Source: Echinococcus granulosus
Taxonomy: Eukaryota; Platyhelminthes; Cestoda; Cyclophyllidea; Taeniidae
Direction: 5' to 3'
DNA length: 64,000 bases
Assembly (NCBI RefSeq): GCF_000524195.1
Contig: NW_020170385.1
Location: 1,381,898 to 1,445,897, forward strand
Each line of letters begins with the position of its first letter. The first letter of the stretch is position 1. This document shows positions 48,188 to 57,319 of this stretch, piece by piece. The translations under genes and the position numbers were made by a program. The notes beneath the pieces are model-generated. The model did no database searches, was not told the DNA's origin, and saw only the letters and a list, made by a program, of their open reading frames with translations.

Positions 48188-51100
48188 TCATCGATTTGTG
48201 CGAATCAAATGGGAGGGTTGGGCCCTATTTAGGGGGTGTTTTTCTAACGCTATTAGGACGTGACTGAGGTACAGGAAAATTCTTCGCCAATCTGGGCCGG
48301 TCTCACTTCTCGTCACTTCCTCGGTACTTATGAAGTTAGGCACTCCAGCCATGTCGCTGAAAAGAAACGTCTCCTTTAAAATGTTATCAATGAAACTCGT
48401 ATGTGATCATTCCGGGATAATGTAGCTACTGTTCACACAGGAAGGGGAAGTTGAACTTGTTTCTTACCTCCGCTTCGGGCAAATAATTGCAACTTCTAAT
48501 AGCTCTTGGAAGCGCTATAGGCAGTGATACATGGCTAACGGATACGCTTAGCCCAATTACTGCTTCCCCCAGGCACACTTGAACAAACACGGTTGAACTT
48601 ACGCAGCTATTTCAAATGCGAGGCGGTAGTTCTCTGCTTTTCCTCCGGAAAGAACAGTGTTGAAATCGAAGGAATTTGGGAAAAAGTGGTGTAGAAGGGC
48701 GCACATTGCGATACCGTCCGCCCATGATGTCGAAAAGTTTTTCACCTCAACACCCTAAAAAAGGTGCATACTAATAGACTTTGGCTGAGAAGTAGTTTTG
48801 GTTAATAGCTACAATGGAATTTCCGATTTAGATATGCAGCAGACATGCTGGTACTGACTATTTAAGGGACTCTGGAAAGATGCTTCTGAGACTGCTTCCT
48901 TTTGGAATATTACCGAAAATACCGAGCTGGTAAAGCACGAGTTTATGAATTTTTGCTGGTAGCAAATAGCGTTATCAACGTTTAGCTTTTGCCATAGCTA
49001 CCGAGTTTGTACCTTATGTACATTCGGTGCATCATCAATGAGAACTATGGCAAATTGACGGAGGCTAGTGCGTATCAGTTCAGCACTCCGTAATTTATCA
49101 CGTTCTTGGTAAACGCAAACCAGACGAGTCCTGTGTTCGGAAAAGCTGACAGCTTACAAGCAGTGGAAATCGGGAGAACTGTGATTTGAGCAGAGTACTA
49201 GCTGAAAAGTGGTCCGTTATGTTTAGCTTAGTGTATGCGTTTTTCATATAGTCGTGTCATCCATGACATTTAGTCCTCCAGCTCCCCCAAAATGAATCCT
49301 TTAGGTGGACTTCCTATCTCCGTTCTCAGGAAGTGTTCACATTTCAAAGACGTTGATAGCTTTCGTTAGGAATGAAGTTCACCCGCAAAGAGGCATGTCA
49401 CCGCTTTGGGAGGTATATCGGGGCTGAGGAGGGTCTCCCTGAACACTTTTAGGCATTTTTGCTTAAATACGCGCGTAAACATTCCCAGACATTACGCCAA
49501 TCTTTCAAAATCAGCATTCTTATTTCCCTCCAATAGATTCACACTCGTAACTGGTACATCGAATGACCACGTCTCTACGTCGTTTTTTTCTCAATCACCA
49601 TTTCGAATAAGGTGGACCTCATTGACAGACACACGGTATTACGAAGTGAAATGGGAAACGTTTCATTTTTCACAATAGCGTGGCCTTTAGAGTGGTTACA
49701 TGGAGTAGCTAACAACAACCAAATGAACAATTTTAAATAAGACTGACATTGCATGCTGACAAAACTTCACGAAGGAAGTGCCAAAATCCGAAATTCTAGC
49801 TCTTGTATTGTATTGCTGAACTCGTAGTTAGTGGTGTAGGTTTGTGCCTACTTTCGATACGTTCTTTTTAAATGCGTTGTTAGAACTACATTTTATTTAG
49901 CTACAAAGGCAATAAACTAAATGCATAATAAATTGCACAAGATCGTACAGAACTCACATATTTCAAGTACTCGTGCGTGTTCAACTGAACGAAACGTAGT
50001 ACCAAGTTTTTCATTTCTAGTAGTGTCAGGGGAGCAATCTTGTGTATTCTAAAAAACCAAATCGGAAAACACACCTCCAATTAAAGTGCATGTAAAAATG
50101 AATAAACTCATGAAACCCAAGCACAAAAGTGCGTAGGAGAATGAACAGAAGAGAAATTTGAAGCCTTTATGCTTTAGGCCTTCTCGTTGTATTTGGACAC
50201 TAGCAGGTGGAAACCACTGCATCAATCAAATAGTTCTGCGTAAGGACACAAGCCTTAAATTACAGGTGGAAGATATAACATTTTCGGCAATAACGTGTTT
50301 ATCAGCAAGCATTGTTTTGACGCCGAGACGTACCGGAAGTGTTCATTTAAGAATGCCACAGGGTCAGTTGCTGAAATCATTATAAAAATATTTGGTTAGT
50401 CAATTTATTGAAGTTCCCAATGTACGCAGTTATGAGCTTCCTGTTGACATTTCCTCTTTATTCTCTAGCATCCCAACCCCAGTTTCTTAAATGTAAGCGA
50501 ATAACTTTAAACGGCAAATACCATTGGGAATTATGCGCATTCAAAAATGGTTCAACTATCCAAGCAGTAACTTCATTGTCACTTTCCATCAGATATTTTT
50601 CTTTTGCTTCTTGCTAGGAAAGCACATCGCATATCGTGTTTCGTACGGTTTAAATTTGACTTCACTACATCGTAATAAATTTTCTCAGAAATTGCATAGT
50701 TTGGGTGAAAATGGGTAAAAACACAATAAATGGAGGAAGAGCTAATTACAAAAAATATTTATTTGAATATGTTTGGTTTCTTTGATGATAAAAAGTATGT
50801 CGAAGAGCTCTGTACTGACCTGGAATAAGCGGCGGCGGCGGCGGCGGTATCTTGCATTTGTGATACTTAGATCAACTATGCCCATGCTTTTATAGTGGTA
50901 CAGAAAATGCTTCTAAAGCACGTCTTTGAAGAAAGCAAAGCAAGTGCAGAAGCAATGTGTTGAGAAAGGCGACTCTTTTGGGTTTTTTAACATTGTTCAG
51001 TATTTTCTACCACTTGAAGTACGGAAGCAGTTTAATGTTAGTGTTGCGGGGTAAAAGGTGGAATTAAAGTATTCTAGTTCTTGAGTTTATTTCATTCTTA

Positions 51101-57100: not shown

Positions 57101-57319
57101 CGAGGGAGTCAGAGTCGAATGGCGCGCACTTCTAGTGCTTCAAACCTCAATTAATATCGTCAATTAAATAACGCTAGTAGAAGCAAGTGCTTTTACTTAA
57201 AAATTGAATATTTGTGGTATACAAAGATGCACAGGGCATAAACTATGGGACAGAAGCAAACCAAATAAATCGTACACTTACTATATGGACTGCTGTCAGG
57301 CAATGCATAGGTTGATGAA
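48188..57319 (-). CDS. Ig-domain plus calponin-homology-domain protein (smoothelin/cytospin-type CH)
   Basis: Exons in transcript order: 57319-57282 (micro-exon), 57037-56684, 56162-56036, 55540-55327, 55026-54497, 54354-53903, 53785-53576, 52038-51757, 50850-50820 (31 bp), 49145-49022, 48754-48603 and 48356-48188. Every phase matches. From the Met at 57035 the model gives 880 residues; the upstream micro-exon splices in phase, so the true start may lie further right. Residues 15-113 form an Ig domain: HLICRL, IIWSY, KPEYSGSYACEI with the canonical D/S-x-Y-x-C. The middle is disordered: a Pro-rich run (VPPHTPPPPVLPTPPPLLPP), acidic DHDDDDT, an RS-rich stretch and a Cys/His cluster (CQNCCCACHRNRC). 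Residues 745-870 form one CH domain (VEVKNFSTSWADGIAMCALLHHFFP, split here as VEVKNFSTSW and ADGIAMCALLHHFF; then YRLAFEIA; PDWRRIFLYL), closest to the C-terminal CH of smoothelins and cytospins, with the helix-1 Trp replaced by Phe. An actin or microtubule linker is likely by family. The acceptors at 53785 and 50850 are weak. Confidence 0.8.
50820..50850 (-). other. 31 bp micro-exon made of a GCC repeat
   Basis: Encodes a short poly-Ala run between the disordered region and the CH domain. It enters in phase 1 and leaves in phase 2, exactly what the flanking exons need; donor CCAG|GTCAGT is good, while the acceptor (aaatgcaag) is weak. The triplet repeat (GGC on the plus strand, about 50830-50847) may vary in length between individuals. 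Confidence 0.55.

Follow-up and report, generated by a model that had tools for sequence, protein, structure and literature searches.

An Echinococcus granulosus gene that probably joins an N-terminal immunoglobulin-like domain to a C-terminal smoothelin-type calponin-homology domain

The minus strand of a 64,000-nucleotide stretch of Echinococcus granulosus DNA (contig NW_020170385.1, positions 1,381,898 to 1,445,897; hereafter the window) carries an immunoglobulin (Ig) exon and, some 8 kb downstream, calponin-homology (CH) exons, which raises the question of whether the two belong to one gene or to two neighbours. A preliminary description, made from the sequence alone, had joined them by an unbroken chain of phase-matched exons into a single protein of 880 residues. 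Comparison with related sequences leads us to conclude, with a probability of about 0.7, that the locus contains a single minus-strand gene whose protein has an I-set-like Ig domain on the N-terminal side and one smoothelin-type CH domain at the C-terminus, with a linker of about 700 residues between them. The Ig–linker–CH reading of the preliminary description is thereby supported as largely right, and the observation itself (a real coding gene, with Ig and CH in one protein) is partly confirmed; the exon chain needed correction.

The relatives of the gene bear directly on this question. The earlier chain was rebuilt from its coordinates, with the borders that it had left unnamed chosen in this analysis (11 exons, 890 amino acids), and served as the query of a first protein search, in which residues 780–880 were scored and 54 candidates were considered. 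A profile search came next, and then one in which the query was re-ordered; all three were restricted by protein length, and the second and third scored the best 7987 and 7993 candidates by shared words. The first search returned three proteins among its 54 candidates, from Taenia asiatica (P0001, 665 residues), Anoplocephala perfoliata (P0002, 1046 residues) and Mesocestoides corti (P0003, 967 residues), all of which start with an Ig region and finish with a CH domain. With sequences from Taenia solium (P0004), Hymenolepis diminuta (P0005), Hymenolepis weldensis (P0006), Rodentolepis nana (P0007) and Hydatigera taeniaeformis (P0009), the relatives total eight, all of them cestode, with an Ig region in seven and a complete CH domain in three. 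The claim of one protein rather than two genes is thus upheld by the presence of Ig and complete CH domains in a single predicted protein in 3/8 cestode relatives, and none of the eight is CH-only, proteins of that kind shorter than about 310 residues lying outside the search length window.

Ig–linker–CH architecture was not found outside cestodes among the candidates scored in the three length-limited protein searches, and the non-cestode matches listed were single CH-domain proteins only (from Plutella, and fish smoothelin b and MICAL-like 1). As far as these limited searches reach, the combination of an Ig domain with a smoothelin-type CH domain appears to be confined to cestodes. The sequence is not new: databases already list the cestode relatives, whether as unnamed or hypothetical proteins or under the label "Ig-like domain-containing protein". 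The database models from T. asiatica, T. solium, H. diminuta, H. weldensis and R. nana look truncated or exon-skipping. No paper on this protein was found in the accessible parts of the open-licence literature under smoothelin in flatworms or cestodes, the Ig plus CH architecture or four orthologue identifiers.

Alignment of the three complete orthologues (T. asiatica, A. perfoliata and M. corti, the order in which three values are given below) onto the window by tblastn, with one acceptor revised later, yielded a corrected model of 13 exons (E1 to E12 and E6b, all on the minus strand) encoding 981 residues from a conserved Met at 57035. All 12 introns are GT-AG with matching phases, and the whole model is 47–72% identical over aligned residues to the seven Ig-bearing relatives. 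E1 (56684–57037) carries the conserved Met and the I-set-like Ig domain and is identical at 95/117, 82/117 and 83/115 positions; when searched against its own genome (103.6 Mb in 272 contigs, the window lying on contig C268), the Ig exon has one match, itself. The linker begins with E2 (56036–56162), which is phase-compatible and bounded by GT-AG, is weakly conserved (7/27, 10/39 and 11/40) and is read in another frame in the T. asiatica model. The proline-rich E3 (55327–55540) has a weak donor, gtatat, is identical at 41/68 positions in A. perfoliata and 17/63 in M. corti, and is missing from the T. asiatica model. E4 (54497–55047), with a CxCxCHx3C cluster and a PRVIxIN-type motif, gives tblastn E-values of 2.8e-32, 1.6e-34 and 7.8e-30, and E5 (53903–54354), with the motifs PDASW, PEAAAAA and AAKERFMNALARFQ, gives 1.3e-46, 2.6e-34 and 8.1e-20, the second of these alignments spanning E5 and E6.

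E6 (53576–53818) probably starts at acceptor 53818 rather than 53785, as judged from alignment: the alignments with T. solium, H. diminuta, H. weldensis and R. nana continue through the revised start, and four of the seven Ig-bearing relatives have the ESNK or DSNK start. E6b (53183–53323; phase 1-1, GT-AG) is tentative, with weak similarity to A. perfoliata (E 0.36) and M. corti (E 0.35) in an alignment that continues beyond the chosen donor. E7 (51757–52038) contains the KIFRN and RSPxxSKxF motifs (tblastn E 5.6e-22, 3.6e-13 and 1.7e-4). The preliminary description had overlooked the next three exons, namely E8 (51216–51350; T. asiatica 28/44, tblastn E 2.4e-10; weaker elsewhere, at 10/36 in A. 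perfoliata and 12/44 in M. corti), E9 (TDPVAFLNEHFR, 50334–50370; 12/12 in T. asiatica and 11/12 in A. perfoliata, the M. corti model differing at 2/4) and E10 (49958–50048; 26/30, 20/30 and 21/30), which encodes the first CH helix. The core of the CH domain lies in E11 (48603–48754; 47/51, 40/51 and 37/51), and its end, with the stop codon, in E12 (48188–48356; 46/54, 45/55 and 32/55).

Set against this model, nine of the 11 exons in the earlier chain were kept by orthologue alignment, whereas 50850–50820 and 49145–49013 were rejected. The Ig exon at 57037–56684 and the CH exons at 48754–48603 and 48356–48188 are real and are joined by phase-compatible exons conserved in cestodes; the chain between them lacked 51350–51216, 50370–50334 and 50048–49958 (and, tentatively, 53323–53183), and the upstream reach to 60629 had been missed. 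The two weak acceptors named earlier as the likeliest sites of a break, should there be two genes, 53785 and 50850, are both artefacts of the earlier choice of exons. The discarded exon 50850–50820 is a GCC run. Neither the helix-1 exon proposed at 49145 nor the variants on its acceptor considered in this analysis, ending at 49087 and 49102, are present in any of the three complete orthologues, and it is 50048–49958 that encodes the conserved helix. Phe replaces Trp in helix 1 of these CH domains, which is why scanning the gene for the usual LxWC signature produced nothing usable.

Matching phases alone prove little, because shuffled sequence also yields long chains. By dynamic programming, the real (minus) strand gives a phase-compatible chain with 3026 nucleotides of "exon" and the plus strand one with 2021; among 200 approximately dinucleotide-shuffled sequences, the median was 1625 and the maximum 2399, and none reached 3026. 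Orthology is the stronger proof that the exons are joined. Codon usage favoured E5 (20.2 bits) and E4 (19.2 bits), the highest background score being 11.5, but it could not decide the short exons: wrong-frame and antisense segments reached 18.3 and 15.6 bits, respectively, and the Ig exon scored 12.1.

The CH domain withstood a domain-profile check, scoring 47.3 bits against the Pfam CH family in the corrected model (cut-off 26) with the right helix-1 exon in place, versus 33.3 for the exon alone. Its best match in the PDB is smoothelin 2d87 (smoothelin L2; E 1.3e-19), with SMTNL1 second. In a 17-row tree, a split supported at 96/96 groups the four cestode CH domains with the smoothelins as a whole, without fixing their place among them. 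The CH-coding region of the window gene is interrupted by a phase 0 intron before GVEVKNF and a phase 2 intron after AFEIA, and the same two positions and phases recur in a smoothelin gene on contig C159, where flanking exons were found on each side. A search of the genome with the CH query gave 17 matches at E up to 1. Apart from the window's own two exons these comprise 15 matches elsewhere, the best two of which are paired copies of a smoothelin-like exon on C159 (56% over 50 amino acids). The CH part was probably derived from a duplicated smoothelin gene.

The N-terminal smoothelin domain PF12510, which is annotated (precomputed) in fish smoothelin P0010, was not found by hmmscan at E up to 1 in the window model or in the T. 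asiatica, A. perfoliata and M. corti proteins. A PF12510 search of the E. granulosus genome itself was silent, but its controls were silent too, so that no absence follows from it. On C159, 9523 bp occur twice with 100% identity (202500–212022 and 239078–248600, about 36.6 kb apart), each copy with smoothelin CH exons; the match runs to the end of the compared piece on each side, and the repeat is either a recent segmental duplication or an assembly artefact.

For the Ig domain, the same kind of profile check divided the sequences. The M. corti orthologue passes the Pfam I-set threshold (24.1 versus 23.7 bits), and I-set falls below the cut-off in T. asiatica, T. solium, H. diminuta, H. weldensis, R. 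nana and the window protein. AlphaFold prediction for T. asiatica P0001 from eight sequences gave a beta sandwich for the Ig region, with a predicted local distance difference test score (pLDDT) of 63–81; the rest was not usefully modelled. A fold search with this predicted structure placed obscurin-like/myomesin and titin domains at the top, with E 4.7e-7 for a titin Ig domain. The passing M. corti score and the modelled titin match together support an I-set sandwich.

Several results weigh against the proposed protein or against assigning its domains in this way. The Ig domain of the window protein stays below the Pfam cut-off (17.4 and 15.7 bits), and Pfam lists no Ig family for A. perfoliata at E up to 1; the A. 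perfoliata Ig region is nonetheless identical to that of the window at 82/117 positions. The E-value of 8.8e-6 for a PDB titin chain adds up several Ig domains; taken singly, even the top-scoring domains are weak matches (16.2 bits and E 0.1 for titin, 17.7 bits and E 0.036 for the second Ig domain in the coxsackie-adenovirus receptor), and the Ig fold search also lists, lower down, antibodies and adhesion proteins. In the tree, the cestode CH domains sit on a very long branch (1.96), and the CH domain was not confidently modelled (pLDDT mostly below 50). In these CH domains, the helix-1 Trp is replaced by Phe and two extra residues stand after helix 1, before GVEV, so binding may differ from that of smoothelin. 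Finally, 5/8 relatives lack a complete CH domain, and all eight are gene predictions.

The Ig scores lend themselves to the view that this is a surface protein of the adhesion type rather than a cytoskeletal linker, the single-domain score being slightly nearer to the second Ig domain of the coxsackie-adenovirus receptor than to titin. We regard this as very unlikely, given the cytoplasmic-type CH domain in all three complete relatives, the titin and obscurin-like domains at the top of the fold matches, and a model in which no long hydrophobic segment is visible by eye, an inspection made with neither a signal-peptide nor a membrane predictor and on a model beyond which the true N-terminus probably lies. 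Even less credit is due to the suggestion that the CH domain is of cytospin type and the gene a cytospin relative. The preliminary description had called the domain smoothelin/cytospin-type, and a cytospin-like exon on contig C244 of the same genome does match it at 63% over 32 residues. However, the tree split sets the window CH domain with the smoothelins and not with the cytospins, the C244 exon runs uninterrupted across the first of the introns common to the window gene and smoothelin, and the Pfam matches of the window model include no coiled-coil family (no coiled-coil predictor was run). The smoothelin half of the earlier label therefore stands, on the 96/96 split and two shared introns, and the cytospin half falls.

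The five relatives in which the complete CH domain is missing (Hydatigera, T. solium, H. weldensis, R. nana and H. diminuta) are also what would be expected if two adjacent genes, one encoding the Ig domain and linker and the other the CH domain, had been merged by gene finders in several species. The way in which these models end makes such a merger highly improbable. Their end points fall at four different sites, the pattern expected of truncated predictions: the Hydatigera model, a linker fragment, stops after E5, that of T. solium in E6, that of H. weldensis after E8, and that of R. nana after E9; the H. diminuta model passes from E9 into the tail of the last CH exon, which it keeps. In R. 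nana and H. diminuta, E9 is connected with the Ig side, and in T. asiatica and A. perfoliata with the CH side; the first CH helix, in E10, is phase-locked with both E9 and E11. Truncated predictions or isoforms thus explain the stop points better than a second gene does, and in at least four species the database model of the gene seems to be truncated. The isoform version of this account, a single gene with alternative ends that produces a long Ig–linker–CH form and shorter CH-less Ig–linker forms, is a possibility to be taken seriously, if still the less probable choice. Several database models finish in the linker, the T. asiatica model is without E3, most of E6 and E6b, and palladin, a comparable scaffold, is described as having several isoforms (PMC10069870). 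Gene-model errors account for the same data, all relatives being predictions. Alternative ends would in any case be compatible with, rather than opposed to, a single Ig–linker–CH gene.

That single gene extends further upstream than had been described. The N-termini of the R. nana and T. solium proteins match two more minus-strand stretches, 60629–60499 and 57319–57282, and the protein therefore probably starts beyond the earlier model, past the assembly gap at 59987–60086; at least 57 further codons lie upstream of the conserved Met. The first stretch, coding exon E-1, encodes RQKVCVFHDLDVDGQSALEEFLKTGADAHPHIHEIVDRRASNV, leaves in phase 2, which fits the next exon, and is 49% identical over 41 amino acids to the R. 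nana N-terminus (E 8e-9, 84-kb target). E-1 has no match in Pfam or the PDB; its segment DLDVDGQSALEE resembles an EF-hand loop by the motif rule, as one motif only, where an EF-hand calcium site is a paired helix-loop-helix, and with Ser at position 8. The second stretch, E0 (SSTYALPDSSPY), has phases (2 in, 1 out) that suit both neighbours and matches the T. solium N-terminus at 8/11 residues (E 0.70, weak alone). Outside the model, 58351–58304 on the minus strand matches T. solium residues 11–26 (56%, E 0.14) and is a possible further 5′ exon. The window contains three 100-N assembly gaps (6876–6975, 17539–17638 and 59987–60086), the last of which is inside the upstream part of the gene.

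The linker, 704 residues long in the model before the acceptor revision, is rich in Ser (10.5%), Pro (9.4%) and Arg (8.8%), and is probably disordered, judging from this composition and low pLDDT. Its motifs CxCxCHx3C, PDASW, PEAAAAA and AAKxRFxNALARFQ are present in all nine sequences (the eight relatives and the window). The Cys/His cluster could serve in zinc binding or acylation.

Elsewhere in the window, a host cell factor (HCF-1) homologue at 41570–47027 on the plus strand is convergent with the Ig–CH gene, with three Kelch_HCF matches (E 2.7e-63, 3.6e-40 and 2.7e-47) and one fn3 match (E 1.2e-10) in Pfam. Exons at 18884–33893 on the minus strand resemble, in their motifs, kyphoscoliosis/hillarin-type transglutaminase-like proteins; Pfam was silent at E 0.01 for the four pieces searched. 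About 6–12 kb past the end of the window, open reading frames on the plus strand carry kinase motifs and look like a protein kinase gene.

The protein resembles several known systems in part. Like SMTN and SMTNL1, it has one C-terminal CH domain of the same subgroup after a long region, with two intron positions and phases shared with the smoothelin-like gene of the same genome; it differs from them in having an Ig domain, in that PF12510 was not found, and in its very divergent CH domain with Phe for Trp and the two-residue insert. A single C-terminal CH domain is also seen in P0008, which we take to be cytospin, whereas cytospin lies on the opposite side of the CH tree split and its copy in this genome is without the intron at the shared smoothelin position. 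The top fold matches of the Ig domain are to titin and obscurin-like proteins, but the window protein has a single Ig domain rather than arrays, and no kinase or fibronectin type III domain in Pfam. Palladin and myopalladin have several Ig domains and are not known to carry a CH domain, whereas the window protein has one of each and on this count stands outside the palladin/myotilin family. The actin-binding domain of filamin consists of two CH domains. It is N-terminal and followed by 24 Ig-like repeats, whereas the window protein has one C-terminal CH domain and no filamin repeat in Pfam. What is shared with filamin is the presence of an actin-binding-type domain and Ig-like domains in one protein (PMC7216277), and with palladin, myopalladin and myotilin the pairing of Ig domains and proline-rich stretches in an actin-associated scaffold (PMC10069870).

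By analogy with these systems, the protein probably acts inside the cell as a tether in muscle or the cytoskeleton. Tropomyosin and calmodulin are both binding partners of SMTNL1 (PMC5359911), and when it lacks its CH domain, its distribution shifts from F-actin-like to diffuse, with single CH domains possibly not binding actin themselves (PMC7240100). The CH end would then dock on thin filaments or on a tropomyosin or calmodulin partner, as in smoothelin-like proteins, and the Ig end would bind a second muscle or cytoskeletal protein. In palladin, Ig domains occur together with proline-rich regions through which partners are recruited (PMC10069870); similarly, the flexible linker, with its proline runs, might span the distance and recruit SH3, WW or EVH1 partners. 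In Schistosoma japonicum, a smoothelin, which need not be a counterpart of the window gene, marks muscle clusters (PMC13355927). A more far-reaching proposal, which we consider improbable, is that the gene is a cestode invention in which a duplicated smoothelin CH domain, a titin-type Ig domain and an EF-hand-like N-terminus make up a calcium-sensitive elastic tether that supports body-wall and scolex muscle; such a tether would link thin filaments to another muscle structure.

To our knowledge, the filament-anchoring proteins of tapeworm muscle have been little studied. A protein that pairs a titin-like Ig with a smoothelin-type CH domain would be a lineage-specific part of that anchoring apparatus, and its gene would show clearly how a domain can be captured once a gene has duplicated, in a genome where a smoothelin gene with the usual CH domain persists.

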